Source of the DNA: Luteitalea sp. TBR-22 | GTDB taxonomy: Bacteria; Acidobacteriota; Vicinamibacteria; Vicinamibacterales; Vicinamibacteraceae | Direction: 5' to 3' | Assembly: GCF_016865485.1 (NCBI RefSeq) | Contig: NZ_AP024452.1 | Span: forward strand, 4,920,501 to 4,984,500 | DNA length: 64,000 nt | Part shown: piece by piece, positions 18,589 through 56,261 of the stretch | Layout: each line of letters starts with the position of its first letter | How positions within the stretch are numbered: position 1 is the stretch's first letter | The notes under the pieces: generated by a model | The model's database searches: none | Told to the model about the DNA's origin: nothing | Seen by the model: only the letters and a program-made list of their open reading frames with translations | Translations under genes and position numbers: made by a program

Positions 18589-19806
18589 CTACGCGACCAC
18601 GGGCGCGGCAAAGGCCGGTGAGGTGACCAGCGCCGCCGCGCCGCGCAGTCGGGGCTGATCGCCGAGCGGCACGATGGCGATCTCGATCTCGGCGTCGTCG
18701 GGCGTCAGCGCGAGCTCACGCAGCACGCGCCGGACACCTGGCTCGACAAGTTCCCAGCCCTCCGTGATCTCGCCGCTCATGTAGATGCAGCTCGGCTGGA
18801 CCGCCTTGATGACCATCGCCAGGCCGCGTCCCAGGTACTCGCCCGTCTCGTCGAGCACCTGGCAGGCACGGGCCTCGCCGGCCCGCGCCCGCTCGACGAT
18901 CGTCGGTACGGTGAGCGCCGGCTTGCTGCACGCCGGCCACGACAGGCTCGTGCCGAGGTAGCGTGCCACCGTGGCGCGCACCGAGGCATAGGCCTCCCAG
19001 CAGCCACGCGAGCCGCAGGCGCACACCGGACCATCGATGTCGATGGGGACGTGACCGAACTCGCCGGCGCCGTTGCGGGCACCCCGCACCAGTTGGCCGT
19101 CGAGGGCGATGCCCACGCCGACGCCGTCGGAGGCGTTGACGAAGACCAGCGGACCTTCCGGGAGCGGCGTGTCACGCACCTCCCAGAGCTGCGCGAGCGC
19201 GCAGGCCTTGGTGGAGTTCTCGACGACGACGGCGTGGCCGGTGGCGGCCTCGAGCGGCGCACGCAGGTCGACGTCCTGCCAGCCGAGCGTCGGGGCACGC
19301 AGCAGGCGGCCGCGCTCGGTGTCGACCAGGCCGGCCACCACGACGCCGATGCCCTGGCACTCGCCCACGCCGGGATGAGCCAGCAGCGCCACGATGCGCT
19401 GCGCGAGGTGCTGCAGCAGCTCGCCCGCGTCTTCGGTGGTCTGGAACTCCTCGATCTCCTGCAGCGGATGGCCGAGCGGATCGGTCACCTGCAGGAGCGT
19501 GCGGCTGGCGCTGATGTCGATGGCGACCGCGCAGCGGCGGCGCGTCTCGATGAAGAGGTGCTGCGGCTTGCGACCGCCCTGGCTGTCGCCCTTCGCGCCC
19601 TCGAAGATCTGGCCGGTGTCGAGCAGGTCCTGCACCAGGCGGCTGATGACGCCACGGCGCACGCCCATCAGCCGCGCCAGTTCGGCACGCGAGATCGGCT
19701 GGTTGGTCCGGACCAGGTTCAGCACGATCTGCCGGTTGATCTCGCGCGACGTTCCGCGATGAGCGATGCGGAAGTCCGTCGGGCTGATCTGGCGCATCGG
19801 AGACAT
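18589..19806 (-). CDS. ROK-family transcriptional regulator (NagC/XylR-like)
   Basis: The protein has 405 residues with an N-terminal winged HTH (about 22-75; ISRAELARLMGVRRGVISRL) and a ROK sugar-kinase-like fold. The ROK zinc motif CACGSRGC (C262, C264, C269) and GEFGHVPID (E249, H252) are intact. The catalytic-Asp motif, normally NDAN, reads VENSTKACA (about 195-202), so kinase activity is unlikely and the sugar site probably serves as a sensor. It is divergent from two coupled FG-GAP proteins across 34 bp and stands at the edge of the carbohydrate region up to 39.5 kb, making it the best candidate for the local repressor (inference). A repeat TGGTCC/GGGCCA at about 19822-19838 could be an operator but is imperfect. 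Confidence 0.92.
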   Translation of the reverse strand: MSPMRQISPTDFRIAHRGTSREINRQIVLNLVRTNQPISRAELARLMGVRRGVISRLVQDLLDTGQIFEGAKGDSQGGRKPQHLFIETRRRCAVAIDISASRTLLQVTDPLGHPLQEIEEFQTTEDAGELLQHLAQRIVALLAHPGVGECQGIGVVVAGLVDTERGRLLRAPTLGWQDVDLRAPLEAATGHAVVVENSTKACALAQLWEVRDTPLPEGPLVFVNASDGVGVGIALDGQLVRGARNGAGEFGHVPIDIDGPVCACGSRGCWEAYASVRATVARYLGTSLSWPACSKPALTVPTIVERARAGEARACQVLDETGEYLGRGLAMVIKAVQPSCIYMSGEITEGWELVEPGVRRVLRELALTPDDAEIEIAIVPLGDQPRLRGAAALVTSPAFAAPVVA

Positions 19807-19840
19807 GCGACGACGAGATTATGGTCCAGAATGGGCCACG

Positions 19841-29581: not shown

Positions 29582-29627
29582 TCAGCCTCCGGGCGCAAGG
29601 CGCCCTGGGCTGACAACGTTCACGGCC

Positions 29628-29667
29628 GAGCCCGGCCCTCCACCTGGGGGGCCGGGCTCGTTTCGTT
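29628..29667 (+). terminator. Rho-independent terminator of the Oar-like receptor gene
   Basis: GAGCCCGGCCC (29628-29638) pairs perfectly with GGGCCGGGCTC (29649-29659) around a 10-nt loop, followed by GTTTCGTT. It lies 47 nt past the stop codon. Confidence 0.85.
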
Positions 29668-29690
29668 CCGGCAGCCATGTTCCGGAGCCT

Positions 29691-29746
29691 GAAATGCCGA
29701 ATGCTGAACCCGAGGCCGAAGGGCGAATGACGAAGGCCGGAGGACG
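29691..29746. repeat. Degenerate 7-bp tandem array before the PHP hydrolase gene
   Basis: Eight successive 7-mers read GAAATGC, CGAATGC, TGAACCC, GAGGCCG, AAGGGCG, AATGACG, AAGGCCG, GAGGACG. Unit identity is low but the period is regular. It is placed between the terminator at 29628 and the GTG start at 29764. Confidence 0.5.
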
Positions 29747-29763
29747 CAGGTAGACTCGGCGCC

Positions 29764-32093: not shown

Positions 32094-35000
32094 CTAGAAG
32101 GCGAACCGCAGGCCGAGCTGCACGGTGCGCGGCGCGTCGTACGAGCCGGCGCCCACCCACTGCATGAACGTCGGGCTGTTGATGTTCGTGTCCGGGTTGA
32201 GGTACCGCGTGTGGTTCAGGACGTTGGCGGCCTGGGCGCGGAACTCGAGCCGGTAGCGGCCGATCGGGATGTTCTTGAACAGCGAGAAGTCGAGGTTCCA
32301 GACGCCGGGCGCGCGGAAGGCGTTGCGACCGGAGTTGCCCCACTGCAGGCCCGTCGGGTTGCTGAGCACCGACGTGTCGATCCACTTCACGTCGCGGCTC
32401 GGATCGTTGATGTAGGAGATGTCGCCGCTCTGGTTCGCGGTGATGGCGCCGGCGCCCGGCGCGAGCAGCTGCGGGTTGTTGCCGCCGATGGTGAACGGCG
32501 TGCCCGAGAAGGCCGAGAAGATGCCGTTGATCTGCCAGTCCTTGACGATGTACGCGAGGATGTTGCTGCTGTCGCGCATGAAGGGCAGCTCGTAGACGAA
32601 CGCCATCTGCAGGATGTGGGTGCGGTCGTAGCCGGCGCGCGCGTAGTTGCGCGCGTACTGGCTCGGGATGTTCCAGGTCATGCCCGTCCACCCATCGTCG
32701 TCGGTCTCGTTCATCGCCTTGCTCCAGGTGTACGCGCCCTTGAGCAGGAGGCCGTTCTTGAAGGGACGGTTCACCGCGACCTGCAGCGAGTGGTACTTGC
32801 TGGTCGTCCACGCGCCCCAGTCGAGGATGTTGGCGTTGCCGGCCTGCGTGAAGAACTGACGGCCGGCGTTGCCCGTGCCGGGCTCGGCGTAGTTCAGGTT
32901 GATGTCGGCGTACCCGCCGTTGTTCTGCGTGCCGACGTACGCGACGCTGGTCACGATGTCGAGCGGCAGGCGGCGCTCCAGCGTGACGTTCCACTGGTGC
33001 AGCGTGGCGCGGTCGACGTTGCCGGGGTTCGGCGTGCGCATGTCGACGCCGCTCGGGAGGCGGGTGCTGCCCGTGCTCAGGTCCGGCTGGGCGATGGGCG
33101 GGATGCCCTGCTCGAGCGTGCCGATGAAGTTGAAGCCCGCGGCCGTGTTGCTGTAGGCCACGGTGGCCGGGTAGAAGCCGCGCAGCGGCCGCGACCACGG
33201 CATCGGGTTGATGGTGATGCCATAGCCGGAGCGGAACACGGTGTTGTCGTCGATGCGGTACGCGAGGCCGAGGCGCGGCGCCACGTAGACCGGCTTGCCC
33301 TTGACGCCGACGTCGTTCGGGTTGCCACCACGGCCGCCGATCAGCACGTTCCACGTCGAGAAGTCGAGGCGCTCGATGCCGCGGTCGGCGCGGGTCATCG
33401 TCGGGTACATCTCGAAGCGCAGACCGCCGTTGAGGGTGAGCTTGTCGTTGACCTGCCAGCGGTCACGGACGTAGAGGCCGTGCTGCCACTCGCGCGTCGT
33501 CATCTCCTCGGCCTGCAGGCTCTTGCCGATCGAACTGGGGAGGCCGAGCAGGAAGCTGCCGTAGCTGTTGAAGCCACCGATCGGCTGGTAGCCCGGCGCG
33601 CCCGTCACGTTGCCGCCGAAGGTGAAGCCACCACGCGGGCCGATGCCGATCTCCGGCTGCCAGTGGTTCATCTCGAGCTTGTTGAAGTCGTACCCGACGC
33701 GCACTTCATGGCGTCCGGCGACCTTGGTGAGGGCCTGCGAGAACGAGTAGACCGACGTCGTGTAGAAGTAGGGATTCCACGACGAGAAGTTGCCGATCGT
33801 GCTGAGGCCCGTGTTGATCTGCGGCTGACCGGACTGGCGGATGTCGGGACCGTTGGTGCCCGGGATGCCCCACACGTCGGTGCCCCAGTTGGTGCCGTAG
33901 TCGGGCGACAGGCCCTCCTGCTCGTTGTAGGTCACGCCGAAGTTGCCGTCGAGGATGAGCGTCGGCGACAGCGTCCAGGTGTGCCCGACGACCGGCGCGT
34001 TCACCTTGGTGGGCGCCGGGGCGACCTGGTCGAAGCCGATCTGGAAGCGGTCCTGCACGTCGGCGTCGAGGTAGGAGTACTTGGCCCAGATCTGGTGCGC
34101 GCTCGAGCGGTTGAACGAGACCTTCAGGTCGTAGTTGTTGCGGTCGAACGTCGGCGCGCGGGTGATCACGTAGTCGTCGGCGATGCGGTTGCCGTTCAGG
34201 TCGCCGGCGTTGGGCAGCGGGTAGACGTCCTGGATCTTCCGGGCGATCGAGCTGATGCGGTTGGCCGGGATGACCGCGCCCGGGAAGAGCGCGCGGCCGT
34301 TGCCGCTGGCATCGCCGGTGAGCGGATCGTAGAGGCGGAAGTTCGGGTAGGCCGCCAGGATCTCGCTGAAGTCGCCGTTGCGCATCCGCGCCGTCGGCAC
34401 CGAGAAGGTCTCCTGGAAGCCGCGCTCCTCGTAGAACTTCTCGTACGACCCGAAGTAGAACAGCCGGTTCTTCACGATCGGGCCGCCGAGCGTGCCGCCC
34501 CAGATCGAGTTGGTCACCTGCGGCTTGGCCAGCTTGTTGGCGTTGTTGAAGAACGTGTTGGCGTTCCAGTCGTCGCGGTTGTTGAAGAAGAACGCCGAGC
34601 CCCGCAGGTTGTTGGTGCCCGACTTGGTGACGACCGCCACGGCGGCGCCGCCGGCCATGCCCGTGTCGGCGTCGAAGTTGTTGGTCACGATGTTGACCGT
34701 GTCCACCGTCTCGGCCGAGGCCACCATGCCGGCGTGGTGCGGCAGCCAGATGTTGATGCTGGCCGCGCCGTCGATGCGGGTGCTGTTGTTGTTGCGGTTG
34801 ACGCCGTTGACGTTGACGCTCAGCGACCGCTGCGGCGTCGAGCCCTGCGAGTTCTGGAACGCACCCGGCGTCGCACCGGGCACCAGGTTGATCAGCGCCT
34901 GGTAGTTCCGGAACTGGTTCAGCGGCAGGTCGGTGATCTCCTTGGGCTGCAGCTGCACGCTCACGTCCGCCTTGTCGGTCTTGAGCAGTGCCGCCTCGGT

Positions 35001-35381
35001 GGTCACCGTGATCGACTCGGTCAGGGCGCCGATCTCCAGTTCCGCGTTGACGCGCAGGATGTTGCCCGCGGTCAGCGGGATCGCCGTCTGCGTGAAGGTC
35101 TTGAAGCCCTGGAGCGACGCGGTGAGCTTGTAGGAGCCCGGCGCGAGGTTGCGGATGGTGTAGGCCCCTTCCGCGTCGGAGACCGCATCGACCGTGAGCC
35201 CGGTGCCCTCGTTGGTGGCGGTCACCGTCGCCCCGGGGATGGCGGCGCCCGTCTTGTCGGTGACCGAGCCCGTCAGGGTGCCATAGAGGGTTTGCGCGCC
35301 GGCCGCCGGCGCGAGGACCAGCCAGGTACAGGCCATCAAGGCCAGGGTGAGCGCGACGTGCAGCCTGCGAGCGAGCTTCAA
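32094..35381 (-). CDS. Oar-like TonB-dependent receptor
   Basis: The 1095-residue protein has a signal peptide (1-29, ending AAGAQ), a CarboxypepD_reg domain (about 33-115; LTGSVTDKTGAAIPGATVTA, DAEGAYTIRNLAPGSYKL), a plug (about 120-270; LSVNVNGVNRNNNSTRIDGA, VNIVTNNFDADTGMAGGAAV, VVTKSGTNNLRGSAFFFN) and a beta-barrel ending VQLGLRFAF. The type is shared with the receptor at 25967 but the two are clearly diverged, so different ligands are likely. The start is a TTG with GCGGAGG about 6 nt upstream. It is divergent from the glycosidase-like gene at 35587 over 205 bp, which suggests shared control of binding and degradation. Confidence 0.95.
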   Translation of the reverse strand: MKLARRLHVALTLALMACTWLVLAPAAGAQTLYGTLTGSVTDKTGAAIPGATVTATNEGTGLTVDAVSDAEGAYTIRNLAPGSYKLTASLQGFKTFTQTAIPLTAGNILRVNAELEIGALTESITVTTEAALLKTDKADVSVQLQPKEITDLPLNQFRNYQALINLVPGATPGAFQNSQGSTPQRSLSVNVNGVNRNNNSTRIDGAASINIWLPHHAGMVASAETVDTVNIVTNNFDADTGMAGGAAVAVVTKSGTNNLRGSAFFFNNRDDWNANTFFNNANKLAKPQVTNSIWGGTLGGPIVKNRLFYFGSYEKFYEERGFQETFSVPTARMRNGDFSEILAAYPNFRLYDPLTGDASGNGRALFPGAVIPANRISSIARKIQDVYPLPNAGDLNGNRIADDYVITRAPTFDRNNYDLKVSFNRSSAHQIWAKYSYLDADVQDRFQIGFDQVAPAPTKVNAPVVGHTWTLSPTLILDGNFGVTYNEQEGLSPDYGTNWGTDVWGIPGTNGPDIRQSGQPQINTGLSTIGNFSSWNPYFYTTSVYSFSQALTKVAGRHEVRVGYDFNKLEMNHWQPEIGIGPRGGFTFGGNVTGAPGYQPIGGFNSYGSFLLGLPSSIGKSLQAEEMTTREWQHGLYVRDRWQVNDKLTLNGGLRFEMYPTMTRADRGIERLDFSTWNVLIGGRGGNPNDVGVKGKPVYVAPRLGLAYRIDDNTVFRSGYGITINPMPWSRPLRGFYPATVAYSNTAAGFNFIGTLEQGIPPIAQPDLSTGSTRLPSGVDMRTPNPGNVDRATLHQWNVTLERRLPLDIVTSVAYVGTQNNGGYADINLNYAEPGTGNAGRQFFTQAGNANILDWGAWTTSKYHSLQVAVNRPFKNGLLLKGAYTWSKAMNETDDDGWTGMTWNIPSQYARNYARAGYDRTHILQMAFVYELPFMRDSSNILAYIVKDWQINGIFSAFSGTPFTIGGNNPQLLAPGAGAITANQSGDISYINDPSRDVKWIDTSVLSNPTGLQWGNSGRNAFRAPGVWNLDFSLFKNIPIGRYRLEFRAQAANVLNHTRYLNPDTNINSPTFMQWVGAGSYDAPRTVQLGLRFAF

Positions 35382-35586
35382 GGGGGGCCTCCGCTAAAGG
35401 TGGCCGACGAGCGCGCGACTCGTGAAGCAGGGGCCTCGCCGAGTCGTCATCAGGACCATCGGTGGGGCTTTCGCAGCTCGCCGGATGCCGCATAGCATGA
35501 AGGAGAATCGCCACGAGTCAAGAGGCAACTGCTGGCCCAAAAGCCGCACTTCTGTCCCCATAAGGACCGAGCAGGAGGAGGGTACT

Positions 35587-37299
35587 TTGCCCCACGCCGG
35601 AGCAAACGTCGCGCGCCTGCGACTGCACCTGATGACGAGCTGCCTCGCGCTGCTCGCCACCGCCTTCGTCCTTGCCGAATCCGGCGACCTGGCGGGGGAG
35701 GCGACGCGCAACGGCCGGCTCGCGACGCGTGCCCTCGTCCAGAGCCAGCGGGTGATGCACGCCTGGCTCGCGCGCCGCGACACGGTGAGCGGCCTGCTCC
35801 CCCATCGCGGCGTCTTCCAGGGCAGCCGCCCCGACCCGGGCTGGGTCGTGGCCAACACCGCCGCCGACCTCTACCCGTTCATGGTGATGGCCGCGCGCCT
35901 GACCGAGCCGGCCACCTACCACGGCGCCATGCTCGACATCCTCCGCCAGGAGACGCTGCGCACCACGCGGGTCGGTCGCCTGTCCGACGACGTGAAGGCG
36001 GGCAATGGCGGGTTCACCAGGCCAACCGTCGACATGGACGCCGTCATCTTCGGCTCGAGCGAGTACATGAAGGACGGCCTGATCCCGCTCACCGAGCTGT
36101 TCGGCGACACGCCCTGGTACCACCGCATGCAGGGCATCGCGACAGACATCGTCGCAAACGCGCCCTACGAGACGTCGCGCGGGCGGCTGCCGGCCAGGAC
36201 CACCGAGATCAACGGCAACATGCTGCAGGTGCTCTCGCGGCTGTACCACCGCACCGGCGACCGCGCGTACCTGGAGCAGGTGCTGGCGATCGCCGACTTC
36301 TACTTCCTCGACATGCTGCCGACCACCGGCGGGCTGCCCGCCGACCGGTGGGACGTGGCGGCTCGCAAGCCGCTGACGACCCGCTTCGTGCTGTCGGACC
36401 ACGGCAACGAGATCGTCGGCGGACTCGCCGAGGCGTTCGTCCTCGCCTCGCACGTGCGCCCCGACAAGGCGGCACAGTACCGACCCGCCTTCGTCGGCAT
36501 GATCGACCGGCTGCTGGCCGTCGGCCTGAACGGCGACGGCCTCTGGCATCACGACATCGACATCGTCACGGGGCGGCCGATCGAGCCGCGCCATGCGCAC
36601 TGCTGGGGCTACATGTTCAACGCGGTGTACACGGCGTACATGGTGACGGGCGAGCCGCGCTTCCGGGCCGCCGTCGAGCGGGCGCTCGCGACGGTGACCC
36701 GGACGCCGGACTACCTGTTCGACGAAACGCCGCCCGTCGCGTGGTGGAGCGCCGATTCGTACTCGGACGCCATCGAGTCGGCCCTCGTGTTGATGAACCG
36801 CCTGCCGCACCCCGGACTGGCCGCGCAGGTCGACGCCGCGACGACGAAGATGCTCGACCGGGTGCGTCCCGACGGCATCGTCGAGGACTGGCACGGCGAC
36901 GGCAACGTGATCCGGACGGCGCTGATGTACGCCTTGTGGAAGTCGCAGGGGGCGCGCCTCGAGCCGTGGAATGCGCGCGTGCACCTCGGTGCGGCCCGCG
37001 ACGAGACGCAGGCCGTCTTCACGGTGACGGCCGGCGCGCCGTGGCAGGGCGTGGTGCGCCTCGACCACCCGCGCCATCGCGATCACCTGCACCTGCCGAT
37101 CAACTACCCGCGGCTGAACGAATGGCCCGAGTGGTTCACCGTGGAGCACGACCGCCGCTACCGCGTGACGATCGGCTCGGCCCCGCCCGTCGAGCGCCTC
37201 GGCGCAGAACTGGTACAGGGCCTCCCGGTGTCGCTCGCCGCCGGCGAGACGATCCGCCTCACCGTCGTCGACGGCGGGGCGGCGCCGTACGGGAAGTAG
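35587..37299 (+). CDS. Secreted six-hairpin-glycosidase-like protein
   Basis: Product of 570 residues with a signal peptide (hydrophobic LMTSCLALLATAFVLA). The body is all-helical with the repeated paired-helix pattern of (alpha/alpha)6 barrels (GNMLQVLSRLYHRTGDRAYL, NEIVGGLAEAFVLASHVRPD, GYMFNAVYTAYMVTGEPRFR, DAIESALVLMNRLPHPG). Conserved acidic/aromatic patches such as VDMDAVIFGSSEYMKDG and GLWHHDIDIVTG could form the active site; the exact GH family cannot be named from sequence alone. A beta domain closes the protein. I chose the TTG at 35587 because AGGAGG lies 9 nt before it and the signal peptide then starts naturally; frames to 35422 have no ribosome site. It is divergent from an Oar receptor and followed by an SSS symporter gene. 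Confidence 0.72.
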   Translation: MPHAGANVARLRLHLMTSCLALLATAFVLAESGDLAGEATRNGRLATRALVQSQRVMHAWLARRDTVSGLLPHRGVFQGSRPDPGWVVANTAADLYPFMVMAARLTEPATYHGAMLDILRQETLRTTRVGRLSDDVKAGNGGFTRPTVDMDAVIFGSSEYMKDGLIPLTELFGDTPWYHRMQGIATDIVANAPYETSRGRLPARTTEINGNMLQVLSRLYHRTGDRAYLEQVLAIADFYFLDMLPTTGGLPADRWDVAARKPLTTRFVLSDHGNEIVGGLAEAFVLASHVRPDKAAQYRPAFVGMIDRLLAVGLNGDGLWHHDIDIVTGRPIEPRHAHCWGYMFNAVYTAYMVTGEPRFRAAVERALATVTRTPDYLFDETPPVAWWSADSYSDAIESALVLMNRLPHPGLAAQVDAATTKMLDRVRPDGIVEDWHGDGNVIRTALMYALWKSQGARLEPWNARVHLGAARDETQAVFTVTAGAPWQGVVRLDHPRHRDHLHLPINYPRLNEWPEWFTVEHDRRYRVTIGSAPPVERLGAELVQGLPVSLAAGETIRLTVVDGGAAPYGK

Positions 37300-45056: not shown

Positions 45057-45686
45057 TCAGTCGTCGAGGTGGATGATGCCCTGCTGCAGCGCCGTGGTCA
45101 CGGCGTGCGTGCGGTCGTTGGCCTCGAGCTTGCCGATGATGCTGCGCACGTGAATCTTCACGGTGTGCTCGCTGATGTCGAGCACCTTGCCGATCTCGCG
45201 GTTGGTCAGCCCGCGCACCACGAGCCGCAACACCTCGATCTCGCGCGGCGACAGCGGCGCGTGGCCGAGCCGGGCCTGCATCCGCGCGGCGATCTCGGCC
45301 GGCACGGCGTCGCCGCCGCCGGCCACGGCGCGAATCGCCTCGAGCAGGTCGGCGCGCCGCATGTCCTTGAGCAGGTATCCGCGCGCACCGGCCTGCAACG
45401 CCCGGTGGATGTCCTCCTCACTGTCGAAGCTGGACAGCACGAGAACGCGCGCGCCGGGATCGCGCTGGCGAATCGCCGCAATCGTCTCGGGCCCGCTCAT
45501 GCCCGGCAGTCGCAGGTCCATCACGACGATGTCGGGCGTGAGCTCGTGGTAGGCCGTCACCGCCTGCGGGCCATCGGCTGCCTCGCCGACCACGGCCAGG
45601 TCCGGCTGCGTCGCGATCAGCGCCGCGAGCCCTTCCCTCAGGATCGGATGGTCATCGACGACGAGAATGCGGATCGGTGTCGTCAT
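45057..45686 (-). CDS. NarL/FixJ-type response regulator
   Basis: The protein has 209 residues. The receiver domain (1-120) has the acidic pair D11/D12, phospho-acceptor D57 in IVVMDLRLPGMSG, S85 and K107. The LuxR-type HTH (145-205) reads LSPREIEVLRLVVRGLTNRE then IGKVLDISEHTVKIHVRSII. Its ATG overlaps the stop of the kinase gene by 4 bases (ATGA), so the pair is translationally coupled and it is the partner of that kinase. It would control target genes upon phosphorylation, possibly including the TonB receptor gene at the head of this operon. Confidence 0.96.
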   Translation of the reverse strand: MTTPIRILVVDDHPILREGLAALIATQPDLAVVGEAADGPQAVTAYHELTPDIVVMDLRLPGMSGPETIAAIRQRDPGARVLVLSSFDSEEDIHRALQAGARGYLLKDMRRADLLEAIRAVAGGGDAVPAEIAARMQARLGHAPLSPREIEVLRLVVRGLTNREIGKVLDISEHTVKIHVRSIIGKLEANDRTHAVTTALQQGIIHLDD

Positions 45687-48600
45687 GCGCCCATCCGCGT
45701 CGCCGCGGGCTCGATGGCCGGGTGCCGGCGATGCCACGCGCGTCGCACCCTCCCGGCCAGGCCCAACGGGACGATGAGCTCGACACGGGTACCGCGGCCG
45801 GGCGTGGAGTCGACGTGCAACCGCGCCGCCAGCTGCCGCGCCCGCTCGCGCATGCCGATGAACCCGAAGCGTGGCCGGTCGTCCCCGCCGGCGGCCTCGG
45901 CCATGCCACATCCATCGTCGGCCACGGCGACGCGCAGGGCACGGGGCGCGCCGATCAGCGTCACGTCGATGCGTGATGCATTGGCGTGCGAGATCGCGTT
46001 GGCGATGGCCTGCTGCGCGACGCGGAAGATCTGGTCCTCCAGGTCCCGCTCGAGCGCGGCCGGCCAGTCGTGCTCGTGGACCTCGAGGTGCACCTTGCCG
46101 GTGGCCAGCAGGCGGCCCGACTCGGCGAGCGCCGCCGCGAGCGGCTGGCCGTCGAGCCAGGCCGACCGCATGTTGCGCACTGAGCGACGGGCGTCGCCGA
46201 GGCACGAGTCCACGTGCGCCGAGACGCGGTCGAGCACCTGCGCCGCCCCGTCGGGGTCGCGGTGGAGCCGATGGCGGGCCGCCTCGAGCTGGAACCCGAT
46301 GCCGGCGACGCCCTGCAGGAGCGTGTCGTGGATCTCGCGGGCCATCCGGTTGCGCTCGGCCTTCACCGCGCGCAGCCGCGCCAGCATCTGGCGCATGCGC
46401 ACCGCATAGGTGCCCCAGGCCGCGCCGGCCAGCCCGAGCAGGCAGAGGCCCGCGAACAGCGGCGTCTGGACGAAGCGGGGCGCCACGGCGACGCGCAGGC
46501 CGGCGGGCGACTCGCTCCACACGCCTTCTTCGTTGCGGGCCATCACCTGGAACGTGTAACGCCCCGGCGGCACGTTGGTGTAGGTGGCGACGCGGCGATC
46601 GCCGGCATCGGCCCAGGTCGGCGCGAAGTCGTCGAGGCGGTGGCGGAAGCGCACCTTCTCCGGGGCCGCGAAACTCGGCGCGGTATACCGGACCTCCAGG
46701 GTGCGGCTCCCGGGCGGGATCCGCACCTCGCCTGCGACCGCGACCGCGCGGCCGTCGACGAGCACTTCCTCGAGCACGATGGGCGGCGGCACGCGCGCCG
46801 GCTCGCCGGTCGAGGGCGGCACCACCACCACGCCGCGCGTCGTCGCGAACCACAGTTCGCCGTTGCCCCGCCGCCATGCCCCCGGAGAGGCCTCGCTGGT
46901 GCCTTCCGTGCTGAGCATGCCGTCGCGAGCGCCGTAGGTGGCCAGGACCAGCGGCGCGCCACGCCCCGACGCGACCGCGTCGAGGCCGCTGCGTGACGTC
47001 CGCACGAGGCCGCGCTTGGTCGACAGCCACAGCCGATCGGCGTCGTCACCGGCCAGTGCCACGACCTCCTCGATGGCGAGGCCGTGCGCCGGCGTGAAGG
47101 CGAACGCACCCGTGTCGTCGATGCGCACCAACCCGGCCGCGGTGCCGAGCCAGAGTACGTCGCGGTGATCGAGCCAGGCGGCGTGGATGGTCGAGCCGAC
47201 GGCGTGCAGCCGGCGCACCTGCCGGCGTTCGCGATCGTCGGCGCGGAACACCGACTCGCCGGCGCACACCCAGAGCCGCCGGCGCCTGTCCTCGACCACC
47301 GCGCGCACCGGCGTGCCCGGCGCCACGCCCGGCAGCGGCACCGGCACGAGGCGATCCTCGTCGCGCCGGAACAGGCCCTGCATCGTCCCCACCCAGAGCG
47401 TCCCGACGCGATCCTCGGCGACGAGGCGCACGCGGAGCGGCGCAGGCGTCCCCGGCGCCGGGACGAGGCGGACGCGGCCGGCGTCGAGCCGCGCCAGCCC
47501 CGCGTCGGTGCCCGCCCAGAGCGTCCCACGGCGATCCTCCAGCAGCGCGAAGACGCGAGCGTCCGGCAGCCCGTCGGCCGTCGAGAACGTGCGGGGTGCG
47601 CCCTCGCCGAGGCGCACCAACCCGCCGCCCCACGTCCCCACCCACATGGCACCGGCGCGATCCTCGCGCACCGCCAGCGCCACGCCGCGTGGCAGGCCGT
47701 CGGCCGTGGCGACCGTCCGGAACTGGCCGGCCCGCACGCGGTACAAGCCGGCGTTGGTGCCGACCCACAGGTTCTGCTCGCGATCCTCGCCGAGCGCCAG
47801 CGCGATCGCCTCGACGCCGGCCAGCCCGGTCGGCGTGACCCAGCGCTCGTCGTCGCGCAGTTGGCGGATGCCGGTATCGGTACCCAGCCAGACCTGGCCG
47901 TCGGCGCCGACGTGCAGCAGGCGCACGCGCTCGCGCGGTCCTACCGCAATCACGCGCGGCACCTCGCCGGCGCGGTCGACCCGCAGCAAGCCGTCCCGAC
48001 TGGCCGCCCACAGGCGCCCCGCCGGATCCTCGGCGACCGAGGTGACCGGCCCGTGCGCGGCGCTGCCGACGACGATCTGCAGCGACTCGCCGTCCTCGGC
48101 GACGCGCGCCAGTCCAGCCTGCAGGCCCACCCACACCCGGTCGGCGCCATCGGTGCCTATCGCAAAGACGGACGGCCGACCGCCGTCGTGCATGCGGATC
48201 CGGCGCCAGCCCGCCGCGGTGCGACGGAAGAGGCCCGCCGCGGTTCCCGCCCACATGGTGCCGTCACGCGTCTCGAGCACGGTGCGCACGAAGGCGGCCT
48301 CCGGGTCTGCCGCCAGCGCCAGCCGCACGAAGGCGCCAGCCGCGCGTCGTTGCCAGAGCCCGCCGCCGTCGAGCGCCACCAGCAAGTGCCCATCACGCGT
48401 CACCTGCAGCGCGCGCACCGGATGCCGCGCCAGCGCCTCGTGGAAGTCGCCCTGGGCGGCCACGGGCACGAATCGGACGCCGTCGAACCGCACGAGGCCA
48501 CGTTGGGTGCCGACCCACAGGAAGCCGTCGGCGTCCTGCGCGACGGCCTGCACCGAGTTGCGCGGCAGCCCATCGTCGGTCTGCCAGAGGCGCAGGCCGT

Positions 48601-48718
48601 ACGACGCCTCCGACGACGAGGCGGCCGACGCCGGCCTCGAGGCGATGCCGGCCCCGGGCAGGCCGACGGCCAGCAAGGCCGCGAGCCACGCCCGGAGGAG
48701 CCGCACCCGTCCACGCAT
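45683..48718 (-). CDS. Sensor histidine kinase with periplasmic two-component propeller and Y_Y_Y domain
   Basis: The 1011-residue product has a signal peptide (about 1-32) and then a long periplasmic sensor of Reg_prop propeller repeats (about 45-640), each with the pattern DRxGxLWVGTxxGLxR. A Y_Y_Y Ig-like domain follows (about 683-745; RFRHRLDDFAPTW, YTNVPPGRYTFQVMA), one membrane helix (754-772) and a cytosolic HisKA_3 (REIHDTLLQGVAGIGFQLEA, phospho-His H797) with an HATPase (AQQAIANAISHANA, ADDGCGM, GFIGMRERA). This build is like the glycan sensors of Bacteroidota, but with a NarX-type kinase. It starts 2 nt after the TonB receptor stop and overlaps the regulator gene, indicating one operon. 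Confidence 0.95.
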   Translation of the reverse strand: MRGRVRLLRAWLAALLAVGLPGAGIASRPASAASSSEASYGLRLWQTDDGLPRNSVQAVAQDADGFLWVGTQRGLVRFDGVRFVPVAAQGDFHEALARHPVRALQVTRDGHLLVALDGGGLWQRRAAGAFVRLALAADPEAAFVRTVLETRDGTMWAGTAAGLFRRTAAGWRRIRMHDGGRPSVFAIGTDGADRVWVGLQAGLARVAEDGESLQIVVGSAAHGPVTSVAEDPAGRLWAASRDGLLRVDRAGEVPRVIAVGPRERVRLLHVGADGQVWLGTDTGIRQLRDDERWVTPTGLAGVEAIALALGEDREQNLWVGTNAGLYRVRAGQFRTVATADGLPRGVALAVREDRAGAMWVGTWGGGLVRLGEGAPRTFSTADGLPDARVFALLEDRRGTLWAGTDAGLARLDAGRVRLVPAPGTPAPLRVRLVAEDRVGTLWVGTMQGLFRRDEDRLVPVPLPGVAPGTPVRAVVEDRRRRLWVCAGESVFRADDRERRQVRRLHAVGSTIHAAWLDHRDVLWLGTAAGLVRIDDTGAFAFTPAHGLAIEEVVALAGDDADRLWLSTKRGLVRTSRSGLDAVASGRGAPLVLATYGARDGMLSTEGTSEASPGAWRRGNGELWFATTRGVVVVPPSTGEPARVPPPIVLEEVLVDGRAVAVAGEVRIPPGSRTLEVRYTAPSFAAPEKVRFRHRLDDFAPTWADAGDRRVATYTNVPPGRYTFQVMARNEEGVWSESPAGLRVAVAPRFVQTPLFAGLCLLGLAGAAWGTYAVRMRQMLARLRAVKAERNRMAREIHDTLLQGVAGIGFQLEAARHRLHRDPDGAAQVLDRVSAHVDSCLGDARRSVRNMRSAWLDGQPLAAALAESGRLLATGKVHLEVHEHDWPAALERDLEDQIFRVAQQAIANAISHANASRIDVTLIGAPRALRVAVADDGCGMAEAAGGDDRPRFGFIGMRERARQLAARLHVDSTPGRGTRVELIVPLGLAGRVRRAWHRRHPAIEPAATRMGA

Positions 48719-48720
48719 GG

Positions 48721-51700
48721 TCAGAACTGTACGCGAACGGCGAGCTGGATCGTGCGCGACAGGATGCTGTTCTGGTTCAACCGGTAGAAGCCGCCGTTGA
48801 GCCGTCCCACCAGATCCGTGTAGACGCCGCGCGGACTGAGCGACTCGCCGGCCGGCGCCGTCGGGGCGCCGGGCAGGCCCGTCGGGTCGTTGGCGAGGAT
48901 CGCGTCCCACACCTCGGGCGTGAGGTTGGCGTACCGATTGGGCTGGCCGGGCAGGTTCTGCGCCAGGCTGCCGAACAGCGACGTGTTGAAGTTGGTCGTG
49001 AGGGCCTTCATGTTGAACACGTTGAAGACGTCGGCCCGGAACTGCAGCGAGCGCCCGCCCCCGAAGGGCACCGTCTTGGTGAGGCTCATGTCCAACACCT
49101 TCACCCACGGCAGGCGCGCGTCGGAGAAGTTGCGGGGGGCGCTACCGTACGTGCCGGGGTCGGGGATGACGAAGGCGCGCGGGTTGACGTAGGGCGTCGT
49201 CGCGGCGTTCTGGGGGGTCCAGGCGGGGTTGACGACGGGCACGCCGGGGACGAGGTTCGGGCGGATGGCAGCGCCGATGCCGCCGTCGCGCACCTGGTTG
49301 GCGTTGCCGAGGGCCACGGTCACCGGGTAGCCCGAGTAGAGGCGACCGAGGGCGCTCACCTGCCAGCCGCCGACGATCCAGTCCAGCACGCCCTCGCGGT
49401 CGAGGAAGCGTCGGCCACTGCCGAACGGAAGCTCCCAGATGCCGCTGAGGTTGAACACGTGCGGCGTGTCGAAGCTGGAGACGGCCCACTCGCTCGCCAG
49501 GTCGTTGGGATTCTGGATGCGCTGGATGAGGATCGCGCCCTGGTCCTGGCCCGAGAGGTTGGCGATGTCGTAGTCGATGCCGCCGCTGGTATCGTCCTCG
49601 GATCGGCTGAACGTGTAATTGAACTTGAACGCGAGCCCGCGGGAGAACCGGCGGTCGACCGAGGTGATCAGCGCGTGGTACTGCGACGTGCCACGGGTCA
49701 CGTCGAGCATGGCGATGCGCCCGTCGCCCGGCCCGTTGAAGCCGGGGTAGGGCTGCGCGGTGAGCGCGTTGGCGTTGAACACGTCGATCTGGTTGACGTT
49801 GATCGTGCCGATGGAGAGGTTGGTGCCACGGCTGCCCTGGTAGCCGGCGGTCACGGTGGTGTGGCCACCGAGGTCGCGCTGCACCTGCACGCTGTAGCTC
49901 TGGACGTACGGCGTGGTGAAGTCGGTGTTGCGCGCGTAGCCGGTCTGCGCGTACCGCGCGTCCTGCCGGCCGGCGGCATTGACGTCGCCGGGGCGGATGA
50001 CGCCGCCGGCGGGGATGTCGAACAGGCCGGGGTCGGGCCGGTAGAGGACGTTGTTGTAGCCGAACTGCAGCGGGATGTTGGCCTCGGGACGCGCCGCGCC
50101 GTTGAAGAAGACGTTGGACGGGTCGAAGCGCGGCGACGTGCCGTAGAGGACGTTGAAGCGGCGGAAGTCGTCGGCGCGGCTCCCGAGGTTGGGGAAGGGC
50201 GCCTTGTTGTTGCCGTAGAGCGGGACGTGCGCCAGCCCGTAGCCGCCGCTGACCACCCAGCGTTGCGCCGGCAGCCAGGAGAAGCCGAGCCGCGGCTCGA
50301 AGTCGAGGTACTGCGGTTCCACGAGGTACCGCGATCGGCCGTCAACCCCGGCGAACTCGAACACCGGCGAGGGCAGGTTCGCCGGAATGCCGGCGCGCGA
50401 CGACGAGTACGGGTTGGTCTCGAGCGTGGCGAGGTCCAACGCGCCCTGCCTGTCGAACTTCTCCCAGCGCGGCGACTGGTACTGGTAGCGGACGCCCAGG
50501 TTCAGCGTGAGGTTCTCGCGCACCTTCCAGTCGTCCTGCAGGTAGGCGCCGACGTCGCGCCAGCGGTAGTAGTACGGCTGCGCGATGTTCTCGTACGCGA
50601 AGAGCGTGTTCGGCACGCCGAGCAGGAAGCTGCCGTAGGCGTCACCGGTGGCGTTGTTCTGCGCGCAGCCCGGGATCGTCCCGCCGAGCGGGTTGGCGCT
50701 GCAGTAGGCGTTGCGGGTCTGGTTGGGGCTGAAGTTCCAGCGCCCGCCGGCCTGGTAGCCGTAGCCATTGGCCGCGACGTTGAACATCCGGAGGTACGCC
50801 GCGACGCCCGCCTTGAACGTGTGCCGCCCGCGCACCAGCGTCAGGTCGTCGATCAGCGAGTAGATGTGGTTCTTCTCCTTGCCGACGTTCTGCGGCCCGT
50901 TGAGCCCCATCGACGGGAACTGGGCGCCGTTGCCGCCGTTGGGGCGCTGGAGGTCGCGGAAATCGGCCAGGCCGTACCCGAGGTAGTTCGGCGTCCCGAG
51001 GCCGGGGCCGCCGAGATCGAGCAGCGGCGTGGTGTAGTCCTTCTCGAGCAGCGGCGACGGGAAGTTGCGCGAGAAGTTGCCGTACACGTAGCTGAGGCGC
51101 AGCTCGTTGACGATCTTCGACCCGAGGGTGGCGTTCCAGGCCAGCAGGCTCTGGCTGGCGCGGGTCGTGTCGCTGACCAGGCCCTGGCGGATGGGATCGA
51201 TCATGTAGCGGTCGCCGTCGCTCGGCGTGTACGTGAAGCGCCCGTACACGTTCTGCGCGTTGCCGAGACGGTGATCGACGCGCAGCGAGTAGCGGTCGTC
51301 GCGGTTCTCGGTGCGGCGGAAGTACAGGTAGTTCGCGTCGGCGTTCGGCCCCGAGGTGATGCGGTCGATGTTGGGCCGCGGCATCAGCTCGCGCAGGATC
51401 CGCTGGGCCGCCGGGTTCACCCAGCTCACGCCGTTGAGCGAGAGCAGGCGCCCGTTGCCGTCGAACATCGGGAAGTTGTCGTACTGGAAGCGCGGGTTGG
51501 TCGCGCTCTCGGGCAGCGCCGCGTTGAAGGCGGGATTGGGCCTGTACGTCAGGGTGCCGTCGGGCAGGCGGTCGAACTGGGCGTACATCTGCGGGTACGG
51601 CACCGTCGTGCCGTTCTGGAGGTACACGACGGAGTTGCGGAAGTCGCCGGCGATCTCCTCGTCGGTCGGGACGCGCGCGAAGCTCGCGCCGCTCGGGTTG

Positions 51701-52683
51701 GAGCGCTCCTCGCGCGTCGGCTCGTAGGAGGCGAAGAAGAAGGTGCGATTGCGGCGCACGGGGCCGCCGAGCGTCACGCCCGCCTGGTGCCGCTCGAGCG
51801 GCGGACGCGCGTCGTTGCCGAGCTGCGGCAGGCGCTGCGCGTTGAACGGCGTCGCGGTGAGCGCCTTCTCGCGATAGAACCAGTAGCCCGAGCCGCGCCA
51901 CTCGTTGGTGCCGCTGCGCGTCGTCTGGTTGATGATGCCGCCGCCGGCCTGCGCGTACTGCGCCGAATAGTTGGACTGCTGGACCGAGAACTCCTGGATG
52001 GCATCGGGCGAGAACGAGACGCTGGTGCGGGCCAGGCCCACGCTCGTGGTGTTGGCGCCGTCGGCGAAGAACTGCGTGGATCCGGGACGTCCGCCGTTGA
52101 CGATCAGCTCGCGGCCGGGCAGCGGCAGGTTCGTGCCCAGTTCCGACAGCTCCGACCCGGCGCTGCCCGTGGTGCCCGGCAGCGTGAGCGCGAGTTCGAG
52201 GGTGTTGCGGCCGTTGAGCGGCAGGTTCTGGATCGTCCGCTGGTCGACCGTCAGCGTGACGGCGCCCGACTCGGTGCGCAGGGTCGGGGCGGCAGCCACC
52301 ACCTCCACCGACTCCTGCACGCCACCGGGGGCGAGCACGAGGTCGACCCGGGCGTCACGCGCCGTGTCGACCTTCACGCCGGTCGTCGCCGCCGCGCGGA
52401 ACCCGGGCAACTCGCCCTTCACGCTGTAGTAGACCGGACGCAGCGCCGGCACCACGTACGCGCCGGCCTCGTCGGTGACGGCCACGACCTGCTGCGCCGT
52501 GCCCTCGTCGGTGACCGTGACGGTCACCCCGGGCAGCACCAGCCCGTCGCTGTCCTTCACCACGCCGCGGATCGAGCCGAAGTTCGATTGTCCCGACGCG
52601 GCCGTGACCGTGACCAGCACCACGGCCACGCACCACGCCGCCACCCGCGCGCATGCCCGCCCGGGCCATCCCGCAGTTGCCAT
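48721..52683 (-). CDS. Oar-like TonB-dependent receptor heading the kinase/regulator operon
   Basis: The 1320-residue protein has a signal peptide (about 1-31, ending TVTAASGQ), CarboxypepD_reg domain (about 37-120; IRGVVKDSDGLVLPGVTVTV, DEAGAYVVPALRPVYYSVKG), plug (about 125-270; NLPLNGRNTLELALTLPG, FSVQQSNYSAQYAQAGGGII) and barrel, ending SRTIQLAVRVQF. I chose the ATG at 52683, with GGAGG about 6 nt upstream, over a longer frame from 52731. Its TGA is separated by only 2 nt from the kinase ATG, so receptor, sensor and regulator are made together, suggesting that the system senses the substrate carried by this receptor. Confidence 0.95.
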   Translation of the reverse strand: MATAGWPGRACARVAAWCVAVVLVTVTAASGQSNFGSIRGVVKDSDGLVLPGVTVTVTDEGTAQQVVAVTDEAGAYVVPALRPVYYSVKGELPGFRAAATTGVKVDTARDARVDLVLAPGGVQESVEVVAAAPTLRTESGAVTLTVDQRTIQNLPLNGRNTLELALTLPGTTGSAGSELSELGTNLPLPGRELIVNGGRPGSTQFFADGANTTSVGLARTSVSFSPDAIQEFSVQQSNYSAQYAQAGGGIINQTTRSGTNEWRGSGYWFYREKALTATPFNAQRLPQLGNDARPPLERHQAGVTLGGPVRRNRTFFFASYEPTREERSNPSGASFARVPTDEEIAGDFRNSVVYLQNGTTVPYPQMYAQFDRLPDGTLTYRPNPAFNAALPESATNPRFQYDNFPMFDGNGRLLSLNGVSWVNPAAQRILRELMPRPNIDRITSGPNADANYLYFRRTENRDDRYSLRVDHRLGNAQNVYGRFTYTPSDGDRYMIDPIRQGLVSDTTRASQSLLAWNATLGSKIVNELRLSYVYGNFSRNFPSPLLEKDYTTPLLDLGGPGLGTPNYLGYGLADFRDLQRPNGGNGAQFPSMGLNGPQNVGKEKNHIYSLIDDLTLVRGRHTFKAGVAAYLRMFNVAANGYGYQAGGRWNFSPNQTRNAYCSANPLGGTIPGCAQNNATGDAYGSFLLGVPNTLFAYENIAQPYYYRWRDVGAYLQDDWKVRENLTLNLGVRYQYQSPRWEKFDRQGALDLATLETNPYSSSRAGIPANLPSPVFEFAGVDGRSRYLVEPQYLDFEPRLGFSWLPAQRWVVSGGYGLAHVPLYGNNKAPFPNLGSRADDFRRFNVLYGTSPRFDPSNVFFNGAARPEANIPLQFGYNNVLYRPDPGLFDIPAGGVIRPGDVNAAGRQDARYAQTGYARNTDFTTPYVQSYSVQVQRDLGGHTTVTAGYQGSRGTNLSIGTINVNQIDVFNANALTAQPYPGFNGPGDGRIAMLDVTRGTSQYHALITSVDRRFSRGLAFKFNYTFSRSEDDTSGGIDYDIANLSGQDQGAILIQRIQNPNDLASEWAVSSFDTPHVFNLSGIWELPFGSGRRFLDREGVLDWIVGGWQVSALGRLYSGYPVTVALGNANQVRDGGIGAAIRPNLVPGVPVVNPAWTPQNAATTPYVNPRAFVIPDPGTYGSAPRNFSDARLPWVKVLDMSLTKTVPFGGGRSLQFRADVFNVFNMKALTTNFNTSLFGSLAQNLPGQPNRYANLTPEVWDAILANDPTGLPGAPTAPAGESLSPRGVYTDLVGRLNGGFYRLNQNSILSRTIQLAVRVQF

Positions 52684-52751
52684 CGGAGCCTCCAGTGCCC
52701 GACAGCATCGGGGGCACGTGGGGCCAGGCACAATCGCTCGATCGAGCTATC

Positions 52752-52811
52752 GGGAGGGAGATCGTCGCTCCCTCCCCCGCCCTGACGCAGACCGCCGGAC
52801 AAGTCCGGCGG
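52752..52811 (-). terminator. Two successive hairpins between the tricorn and receptor genes
   Basis: CCGCCGGAC/GTCCGGCGG (52792-52800 and 52803-52811, 2-nt centre) and GGGAGGGAG/CTCCCTCCC (52752-52760 and 52768-52776, 7-nt loop). They lie downstream of the tricorn stop on the minus strand and upstream of the receptor gene. No long T tract is seen. Confidence 0.5.
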
Positions 52812-52853
52812 CGACGTCCGGTGGTGGAACGTGCTTCGTTCGGCGTTCGCTCC

Positions 52854-55800
52854 TCAGCGCCGCTCGACCTTCACTGGCGGCGCCGGCTTCTTCGGCAGCG
52901 CCACGGGCGTCTGCAGCTTCTTCATGACCTCGGCGACTGCCCGTTCGAGTTGCGGGTCCTTGCCTTCGATCACCGACTTCGGGTCGTTCTCGACGTCGAT
53001 GTCCGGATCGACGCCGTAGCCCTCGATCACCCAGGCGCCCTTGGCGCTGGCCAGGCCCGACAGCGGCACCGACACCACGCCGCCGTCGATCAGCGGCCCG
53101 CGCGGCGAGATGCCGACGACGCCGCCCCACGACCGGCGGCCGATGAGCGGCCCGAGCCCGGCCTCGCGGAACATGTACGGGAAGATGTCGCCGTCGCTCG
53201 ACGAGTTCTCGTTGAGGATCGCCGCCTTCGGCCCGATGAACACGCCGTCGGGATACGGACTGCCTTCCTCGTCCACCCGCCCGTAATTGACGCCGAGCAG
53301 CGTCCGCCGCAGGCGCTCGATGAGCATCCGCGAGACGTTGCCGCCGCCGTTGGCACGCACGTCGACGATCAGGCCTTCCTTGCGGAGCTGCGGGTAGTAC
53401 CACTTGATGAACTCGCGCAGCCCGGGCGCTCCCATGTCGGGGATGTGGAGGTACCCGATGCGACCATTCGACAGCCGGTCGACGCGCGCCCGGTTGCCCT
53501 GCACCCAGTCCAGGTAGATGAGGTCACTCTCGGAAGCGATCGGGTTGAAGGTGACCTTCCTCGCGCCCTCGAGGGAGGCTGACGTGTTGACCGTGAGCTC
53601 GACGGGCCGACCCGCCTTGTTGCGGAGCAGCCGGTACGGATCCTCGTCGGCGCGGAGCGCCTCTCCGTCAATCGCCAGCACGTAGTCGCCGACCTTCACG
53701 TCGACGCCGATCTCGGTGAGCGGCGCCCGGTAGGTGGGCTCCTCGTTCTGGCCCGCGAAGATCTTCGCGAGACGGTAGCGTCCCGAGGCCTTGTCGAGTG
53801 CCAGCCTCGCGCCCGGCAACGCCACGCCCGGGCGAGGCGGCATCGTGAAGTCACCGCCCTCGATGTAGGCGTGCTGCACGGTGAGCTCCGACACCATCTC
53901 GCTGATCAGGTAGTTGAGGTCGGACCGGTGCGCGACGTGCGCGAGCCACGGCTCGTACTGCTTGCGGATGGCCACCCAGTCGAACCCGTGCATGTTGGGC
54001 ACGTAGAACCAGTCGCGATACTGCCGCCACACCTCGTGGAAGATCTGCCGCCACTCCTCGGTGGGCACGCGATCGACCACGAGTCCGGCCGTCGACACGG
54101 GCTTGCGCGCGTTGGCGCCTGCCGGCGTGGCGTCGTGCAAGGTGTAGCCTCCCGGGCCGCGCACGAGGACCTTGGACCCGTCCGACGAGAGCGCATAGCC
54201 CTGCGCGTCGTCGACCAGCGTGGTCTCCTTCCGGTCCTTGAGCGAGTACAGGCGCACCGACGGCTTCCGCTCGCTCTGCCGCCCGTAGTAGAAGCCCGCG
54301 CCGACGACGTAGATCAGGTGGCCCTTCTTCGCGGTGAGCCCGACGTAGTTGTCGCCGTCGAGCGGCACGCGCGCCACACGTGAACCGAGGCCCTCGAAAT
54401 CGATGGCCAGCGTCGGCGACGGGGGCGCCCCGGGCATCGGGGACGGAGCCGCGGCCGACGTCGCGCCCGCCCCGGCGACCTCGGCCTTCGGCGTCACGGC
54501 GGCGGCCTCCAGCTTCGACAGGGTGACCTCGTCGCTCTCCGGCGGGAACGGATGCTTGACGCCCTTGCGGAGGGCCAGCGCGAAGATGCCGGTGGTGCGG
54601 TTGGTCGCGAAGTTGAACTCCACCGACGAGATGAACGGCGCGTAGTCGCGATCGCTCAGGTAGAACAGGTAGTCGCCGTCGGGATCCCAGGCCGGGTTCT
54701 CGGCGTTGAACAGGCCGTCGGTCACCTGGCGGCGCTGCCCGTCGCCGGCGCTCCACACGTGCACGGCGCTCACGCCGTTGGCGCCGGTCATGCTGAAGGC
54801 GAGGTGGTTGCCGCGCGGCGACCACGTGTAGTCACGCACCTGCCCGCGCGGCGCGTCGGCCACCTCGGTCACGGCCCTGGTGTCGAACGCGTAGACGAAC
54901 ACCTTCCCGTCGCGGTCGCTGAACGCGATCCGCTTGCCGTCGGGAGCCCACTCCGGCTGGTAGCGCATCGTCGCGCCGTTGCTCGTGAGCTGCTCCGGCT
55001 GCCCGGAGCCGTCCTGCGCGACCGCGTACAGCTCGTCCTCGCCGCTGCGATCGGAGATGAACGCGATGCGCGACCCGTCGGGCGACCATCGCGCCCACTT
55101 GTCGTGCGCCCCCGACGACATCGTCAGGTTGCGCGTCGGCCCCTTCTCGATCGGCACGGTGAACACGTCGCCGCGCGCGACGAACAGGGCCCGCTCTCCC
55201 TTCGGCGACAGCTCGAAGTCCTCGATCTGCCCGGCCGCCGGGACGCGTGAGGGGCGTTTCCACGTGCCGTCGGTCGGCACCGTGATCGCGATCGGCGTGC
55301 TCCGTCCCGTCTTCACGTCGATCACCTGCAACTCGCCGTTCAGTTCGTAGACGATGCGCTGGCGCTTGTCGGAGCTGGGCCAGCGGACGTCCCAGGTGCG
55401 GCTGGTCGTGAGCGGCGCCACCTTCGCGGAGGCCACGTCGTAGGCGTAGAGGTTGAAGGTGCCGTCGCGGTCGGAGGTGAAGTAGATCGTGCCGTCGATC
55501 CACATCGGGTCACGGTCGGCGCGCGGGTGGTCGAGGATGCGCTTCGCGTCGTTGGACTTCAGGTCGAAGACGAACAGGTCGTTGGCCATGCCGCCGCCGT
55601 ACCGCTTCTCGGGCCGGAAGTCCCGGAACAACGGCGAGTAGACGACGCGGGTGCCGTCGGGCGAGTAGTCACCGGCGCCCGACTCGGGCATCGGCAAGGG
55701 CTCGGCGGGGCCACCTGCTGCGGGCACGGTGTACAGCCGGTTGAGCCCGAGCGTCCACGAGTCGCGCATGGAGCGGAAGAGGATGTTCTTGCCGTCGGGC

Positions 55801-56198
55801 GTCCAGCCGTAGACCTGGTTGTCCCAGCCCCAGCGTGGCGTGAGCGGGCCACGCGCCGGGTAGTAGGTGAGCTGCCTCGGCTCGCCGCCCGTGGACGGCA
55901 CCACGTAGACCTGCTCGTCGCCGTCGTACTGGCCGGTGAAGGCGATCCACTTGCCGTCGGGCGAGAACCGCGCGAACACCTCCATGCCCGGATGGGCGGT
56001 GAGTCGCGTGGCCGTGCCGCCCGCCACCGGCGCCACCCAGAGGTCGCCGGCGTACGTGAAGGCGACCCGGTCGCCATGGATGGCCGGGAAGCGGAGCAGG
56101 CGAGTCTGCGCGTGGGCCGGCGCGCTGCACGTCGACAGCGCCGCCAGAAGCACGCCGCCCGTCAGCGCCGCGCGGAACGTTCGATACACGTGGGTCAC
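52854..56198 (-). CDS. Secreted tricorn-type protease
   Basis: The protein has 1114 residues: signal peptide (about 1-30), a first WD40/PD40-type propeller (about 35-330; FPAIHGDRVAFTYAGDLWVA, FSPDGKWIAFTGQYDGDEQV), a second propeller (about 340-680), the C1 core (about 700-790), a PDZ domain (about 800-890; VKVGDYVLAIDGEAL) and an S41/tricorn catalytic core with GLIVDVRANGGG and LNENSSSDGDIFPY. The Ser before DGD, residue 1001, is the expected nucleophile. Archaeal tricorn trims oligopeptides in the cytosol; this bacterial form has an export signal. The GTG at 56198 has GGAGG 4-5 nt upstream and replaces a longer frame from 56255. A Ser/Pro/Ala-rich loop lies at about 575-600. Confidence 0.95.
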   Translation of the reverse strand: MTHVYRTFRAALTGGVLLAALSTCSAPAHAQTRLLRFPAIHGDRVAFTYAGDLWVAPVAGGTATRLTAHPGMEVFARFSPDGKWIAFTGQYDGDEQVYVVPSTGGEPRQLTYYPARGPLTPRWGWDNQVYGWTPDGKNILFRSMRDSWTLGLNRLYTVPAAGGPAEPLPMPESGAGDYSPDGTRVVYSPLFRDFRPEKRYGGGMANDLFVFDLKSNDAKRILDHPRADRDPMWIDGTIYFTSDRDGTFNLYAYDVASAKVAPLTTSRTWDVRWPSSDKRQRIVYELNGELQVIDVKTGRSTPIAITVPTDGTWKRPSRVPAAGQIEDFELSPKGERALFVARGDVFTVPIEKGPTRNLTMSSGAHDKWARWSPDGSRIAFISDRSGEDELYAVAQDGSGQPEQLTSNGATMRYQPEWAPDGKRIAFSDRDGKVFVYAFDTRAVTEVADAPRGQVRDYTWSPRGNHLAFSMTGANGVSAVHVWSAGDGQRRQVTDGLFNAENPAWDPDGDYLFYLSDRDYAPFISSVEFNFATNRTTGIFALALRKGVKHPFPPESDEVTLSKLEAAAVTPKAEVAGAGATSAAAPSPMPGAPPSPTLAIDFEGLGSRVARVPLDGDNYVGLTAKKGHLIYVVGAGFYYGRQSERKPSVRLYSLKDRKETTLVDDAQGYALSSDGSKVLVRGPGGYTLHDATPAGANARKPVSTAGLVVDRVPTEEWRQIFHEVWRQYRDWFYVPNMHGFDWVAIRKQYEPWLAHVAHRSDLNYLISEMVSELTVQHAYIEGGDFTMPPRPGVALPGARLALDKASGRYRLAKIFAGQNEEPTYRAPLTEIGVDVKVGDYVLAIDGEALRADEDPYRLLRNKAGRPVELTVNTSASLEGARKVTFNPIASESDLIYLDWVQGNRARVDRLSNGRIGYLHIPDMGAPGLREFIKWYYPQLRKEGLIVDVRANGGGNVSRMLIERLRRTLLGVNYGRVDEEGSPYPDGVFIGPKAAILNENSSSDGDIFPYMFREAGLGPLIGRRSWGGVVGISPRGPLIDGGVVSVPLSGLASAKGAWVIEGYGVDPDIDVENDPKSVIEGKDPQLERAVAEVMKKLQTPVALPKKPAPPVKVERR

Positions 56199-56261
56199 TG
56201 GACCTCCATCAGGGCCAACGCTCCGGCCGTCCCGGCGGGAGCCACTGCCGAGCATACAGGT

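Follow-up and report, generated by a model that had tools for sequence, protein, structure and literature searches.

A SusD-less receptor-kinase-regulator operon of Luteitalea sp. TBR-22 looks like a compact variant of known carbohydrate-sensing uptake loci

When genes for an outer membrane receptor, a sensor histidine kinase, and a response regulator are found in direct contact, do they constitute a single nutrient-sensing uptake system, and is such a system of a new kind? This question is raised by three genes on the minus strand of the window, by which we mean the entire 64,000-nucleotide stretch of Luteitalea sp. TBR-22 DNA that was analyzed. According to Pfam and sequence features, the first gene encodes an Oar-like outer membrane receptor of 1320 aa (48721..52683, (-)), the second a sensor histidine kinase of 1011 aa (45683..48718, (-)), and the third a NarL/FixJ-type response regulator of 209 aa (45057..45686, (-)). 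The receptor stop and kinase start lie 2 nt apart within the junction TGACCATG (48716..48723, (-)), which reads as the receptor TGA, CC, and the kinase ATG, while the kinase stop and the regulator start overlap as ATGA (45683..45686, (-)). Thus, the three touching genes of the original prediction were borne out base for base. The 2-nt spacing suggests that expression of the receptor and kinase is coupled, and all three genes are presumably cotranscribed. A sigma-70 promoter scan detected no site and an intrinsic terminator scan detected one terminator-like site, no more than in shuffled sequences, but these scans are uninformative because the genome is GC-rich. Upstream of the receptor and on the same strand, a PD40/tricorn/S41 peptidase gene (52854-56255, (-)) is separated from the operon by 170 nt, while an AI-2E-type permease gene follows the regulator after 84 nt and a PP2C phosphatase gene is also among the neighbors. 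Pfam detected no SusD among these neighbors, no CAZyme or sugar-catabolic gene was present among the flanking genes scanned, and neither an inner-membrane transporter nor degradative enzymes of the CUT type were found beside the operon. Both the relatives and the taxonomy place this DNA in the Acidobacteriota (Vicinamibacteraceae), so an assignment to the Bacteroidota was rejected.

The receptor has a signal peptide at its N-terminus, a CarboxypepD_reg domain (aa 37-117; 2.8e-14), an OMP_b-brl_4 barrel (aa 254-1241; 7.8e-167), and a C-terminal Phe. This pairing of a CarboxypepD_reg extension with an outer membrane barrel is that of an Oar-like receptor. The claim that no SusD accompanies it was likewise supported. 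The N-terminal CarboxypepD_reg domain is expected to face the periplasm. Pfam detected no STN signaling domain and no plug domain above its threshold, although the related receptor of locus L225 does match Plug. No relative in the PDB was found by sequence, and the receptor is presumably TonB dependent. In the receptor tree, it groups with those of three other genomes (G081, G111, and G005) with 100% local support. The kinase begins with a signal-like stretch, which is followed by a Reg_prop double propeller (3.5e-46), a Y_Y_Y domain (aa 682-741), a single transmembrane helix at ~aa 749-770, and the HisKA_3 and HATPase_c domains. Alignment indicates that its catalytic residues are intact (H797 in the H-box EIHDTLLQ, N907, and DDGCG), and the regulator, which consists of a Response_reg receiver and a LuxR/GerE helix-turn-helix domain, similarly has the Asp in VVMDL and the Lys in LLKD. 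A HisKA_3 kinase with H-, N-, and G-boxes adjacent to a receiver-GerE regulator is the composition of a NarL-type system, while a periplasmic Reg_prop double propeller with Y_Y_Y is that of an HTCS sensor. The single polypeptide of an HTCS is not found, as the receiver and GerE domains reside on the separate 209-aa protein. The sensor half is related by sequence to the periplasmic domains of three Bacteroides hybrids, namely the glycan-sensing BT4663 (4a2l) and BT3049 (3v9f) as well as BT4673 (3ott), with a family-profile search of the PDB yielding 1.4e-98 for 4a2l and 5e-86 for 3v9f. Likewise, a Foldseek search with an AlphaFold model of the kinase (mean pLDDT 79.7) returned BT3049 (target TM-score 0.79, rmsd 4.4) and BT4663 (~0.74) as the best solved structures. 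The catalytic half has DesK and VraS as its sequence relatives in the PDB, which makes the kinase, by sequence and predicted fold, a mosaic of an HTCS-type sensor placed upon an unfused NarL-type system. The proposed union of an HTCS-like propeller sensor with a conventional two-protein system was supported.

The closest known counterparts are the Bacteroidota PUL with an HTCS (BT3049 and BT4663), in which the gene for an outer membrane receptor likewise neighbors that of a regulator whose sensor combines a Reg_prop double propeller with Y_Y_Y, and the sensor is homologous in both sequence and predicted fold. However, the Luteitalea operon comes from another phylum, lacks the SusC-SusD pair and an adjoining CAZyme, and has an Oar-like OMP_b-brl_4 receptor, and its kinase core is of the HisKA_3 (DesK) type with a separate NarL-type regulator rather than part of a hybrid polypeptide. 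Carbohydrate TonB-type receptors without SusD are known from the Xanthomonas CUT loci, and Oar-like extensions have also been described among Xanthomonas receptors (PMC1790865), but these loci include degradative enzymes for a plant carbohydrate and an inner-membrane transporter and have a different regulator. NarX/NarL and DesK/DesR share the HisKA_3 kinase and the adjacent, separate receiver-GerE regulator, whereas here a large double propeller in the periplasm serves as the sensor and the first gene of the operon encodes an outer membrane receptor. In its working, the operon resembles both an HTCS-regulated PUL and a CUT locus, but it belongs to neither class: it lacks SusD and CAZymes, and its two-component system is not fused. 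No description of such loci in Acidobacteria was found in the open-license papers searched.

Our survey covered 100 relatives and 396 genomes of the phylum together with GTDB contigs; the neighborhoods of the matches were fetched and yielded 137 kinases with the Reg_prop/Y_Y_Y/HisKA_3 composition. Most have an adjacent NarL-type regulator, often with an overlap, which makes such kinase-regulator pairs a common arrangement. Only 4 of the 137 kinases are immediately preceded by a receptor gene on the same strand: the window kinase and those of L322 (from the same taxonomic order), L205 (Acidobacteriaceae), and L376 (G290, from the same phylum). In L322, the receptor ends ~67 nt upstream of the probable start of the kinase. 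Both L322 and L376 contain inverted repeats between receptor and kinase, which in L376 are terminator-like; therefore, the genes truly touch only in the window and cotranscription is not general. A receptor adjoins the module in another orientation at six more loci (L108, L367, L115, L320, L352, and L225). Among the strong receptors located within 6 kb of a module, 7 of 18 lie ≤700 bp away versus 2.1 expected (p = 0.003), a ~3-fold enrichment relative to nearby distances. The window and edge-limited loci were left out of this test, and it provides only moderate evidence, as the choice of the 700-bp cut followed inspection of the results, and the loci are related to one another. The principal alternative is that a common kinase-regulator pair came to lie behind one of many Oar-like receptors by accident, in which case cotranscribed genes would serve separate functions. 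Consistent with this, the closed 6.47 Mb genome encodes ~28 strong OMP_b-brl_4 receptors and ~6 Reg_prop sensors, and among the sensors whose surroundings were read, only the window kinase touches a receptor. Likewise, neither the receptor-linked label on the kinase tree (9 changes vs 9.8 in shuffles) nor the kinase-paired label on the receptor tree (10 vs 9.5) is clustered. The adjacency enrichment and the 2-nt spacing both argue against an accident, as does one receptor family that is linked to one kinase clade across families: the receptors of L205, L216, L217, and L328 share 52–80% identity, and each is found no more than ~5 kb from a kinase of a single clade, in three different arrangements, so that the link was kept despite rearrangement. 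We therefore consider an accidental neighborhood unlikely, though far from negligible. The absence of clustering on the trees does indicate that receptor-kinase pairing appears to have arisen repeatedly, with the linkage in those four loci looking like an inherited exception.

The receptor-kinase-regulator order was not found in sister genomes, which also fits an accidental neighborhood. In the syntenic region of the sister species (G001), the phosphatase that flanks the operon is 77% identical and adjoins a truncated AI-2E-type permease remnant, while nothing there matched the window receptor, Reg_prop kinase, or peptidase. The unit was thus either gained in the lineage of the window or lost from the sister region. 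In the permease remnant (L187, G001:C1:1660692-1661140), residues 4-76 and 270-348 abut and the middle is missing. The window kinase itself forms a long, solitary branch and is 38% identical to the closest relative in the survey; no orthologue was found within the genus and the best match among the 100 relatives is in G081. The refuting case named at the outset, a three-gene order without conservation in relatives, did not arise, as the same-strand trio recurs in L322, L205, and L376 and adjacency is enriched. A distinct locus type, as originally suggested, was not supported, given an order found for 4 of 137 kinases but not in the sister genomes, contact in the window alone, and pairs scattered on both trees; a single conserved locus type is unsupported by the same tree comparisons. 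Because pairing of this sort recurs, if loosely, within the phylum, the operon looks like a variant of known uptake loci that sense carbohydrates, compact and self-contained, rather than a new kind of system.

The nature of the ligand is suggested mainly by relatives. HTCS sensors of this kind respond to the oligosaccharides that induce their loci (PMC3243724), and the CUT loci provide precedents for TonB receptors that handle carbohydrates without a SusD (PMC1790865). In G081, a relative from the same taxonomic order, near kin of the window receptor adjoins a GH106 alpha-L-rhamnosidase gene, and the same locus (L191, G081:C14) also holds genes for L-rhamnose isomerase (RhaI), rhamnulose-phosphate aldolase/dehydrogenase (RhaD-ADH), rhamnulokinase, and a sugar ABC transporter, all named by their best family matches, some of which fall below the curated cut-off. 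The G081 kinase gene stops 14 bases short of the end of contig C368, and the receptor gene has its 3' end at the end of C14; judging from these contig ends, the two would join end to end to give the order of L225. Near kin of the window receptor in G005 adjoins a sulfatase-like gene, L376 sits between GH106 and GH2 genes, and L205 comes after a GH76 gene. CAZymes are thus present in the loci of G081, L376, and L205, and CUT-type content is partly present in G081. Rhamnose was not adopted as the substrate of the window operon, as the sole GH106 gene of its genome is ~845 kb away. The immediate neighbors of the surveyed kinases are diverse and many are unrelated to sugars (cytochromes and PQQ dehydrogenases); therefore, the kinase type alone is no proof of a sugar ligand. 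The same circuit could instead serve a peptide, protein, or other non-sugar ligand, such as peptides taken up together with the action of the upstream tricorn-like S41 peptidase, whose gene is on the same strand just 170 nt away, while sugar genes are absent next to the operon. However, no such peptidase was recognized beside near kin of the receptor (GH106 in G081 and sulfatase-like in G005), the relatives of both sensor and receptor point to sugars, and a structured gap separates the peptidase from the receptor. Hence, we hold a non-sugar ligand to be quite improbable, and the ligand is probably an oligosaccharide.

Overall, we read these genes as a SusD-less, self-regulating nutrient-uptake operon whose ligand is most likely an oligosaccharide, with a probability of roughly 0.55. 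The gene contacts, homology to HTCS sensors, recurrence, and the sugar genes near several relatives all support this reading, and we counted against it the lack of an adjoining sugar gene, the upstream peptidase, the distant GH106 gene, the lack of a close kinase relative, the repeats in L322 and L376, the diverse kinase neighbors, and a G081 linkage that we infer from contig ends. In the proposed working, the Oar-like receptor would import the ligand over the outer membrane with TonB energy, and the ligand would then bind the kinase double propeller in the periplasm. The signal would pass via Y_Y_Y and the transmembrane helix to the DesK-like kinase core, leading to autophosphorylation on H797 and transfer of the phosphate to the regulator. 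Both the target and the direction of regulation are assumed: the phosphorylated regulator would activate its own operon and thereby raise receptor output while ligand is present. Direct contact of the loaded receptor with the kinase propeller, as FecA contacts FecR, would make the receptor itself the sensor input, and such a contact would suit an operon of fixed 1:1 composition whose receptor has a CarboxypepD_reg domain at its N-terminus, on the expected periplasmic side. We regard it as very improbable indeed, as the receptor has no STN signaling domain and sensor domains like this one are known to bind oligosaccharides themselves (PMC3243724). Returning to the uptake operon, it is possible, though somewhat doubtful, that the Acidobacteriota own a SusD-less PUL counterpart in which Oar-like receptors are placed under unfused Reg_prop/HisKA_3-NarL systems and re-paired repeatedly, the window operon being the most compact form. 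The Acidobacteriota are abundant in soil yet under-studied, and each genome encodes dozens of Oar-like receptors about whose ligands and regulation little is known. Should adjacent sensors control these receptors, the ligand of a sensor would reveal the substrate of its receptor and provide a handle on the diet of these bacteria, as HTCS did for gut Bacteroides.

The 170-nt gap before the receptor (52684..52853, (-)) is strongly structured (z = -3.4) and is the likely place of the promoter and operator. It includes a perfect 12-bp palindrome, GCTCGATCGAGC (52736-52747), which by itself is weak operator evidence because the 64 kb window contains 41 perfect palindromes of at least 12 bp. Three diverged copies of parts of this gap (78–85% identity) occur at other sites in the genome, and the structured stretch is perhaps a small dispersed intergenic element.

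A separate observation concerns a secreted protein family of ~150–180 aa without a Pfam match, which is encoded just downstream of a Reg_prop/HisKA_3 kinase and NarL regulator at ~20 Acidobacteriota loci (L216:13404-13943 (+), with relatives in L203, L204, L205, L217, L229, L233, L259, L262, L330-L332, L333, L334-L337, L338, L339, L341, L342, L349, and L353). This kinase-regulator-secreted protein cassette is more conserved than the three-gene unit of the window, in which the secreted gene was not found. The window also contains two further Oar-like receptor genes (25967-31791 and 32094-37299), each of which adjoins a gene for a 555–675 aa protein without a Pfam match above the cut-off, and genes for FG-GAP/ASPIC and TPR proteins lie beside them at 19766-25836.
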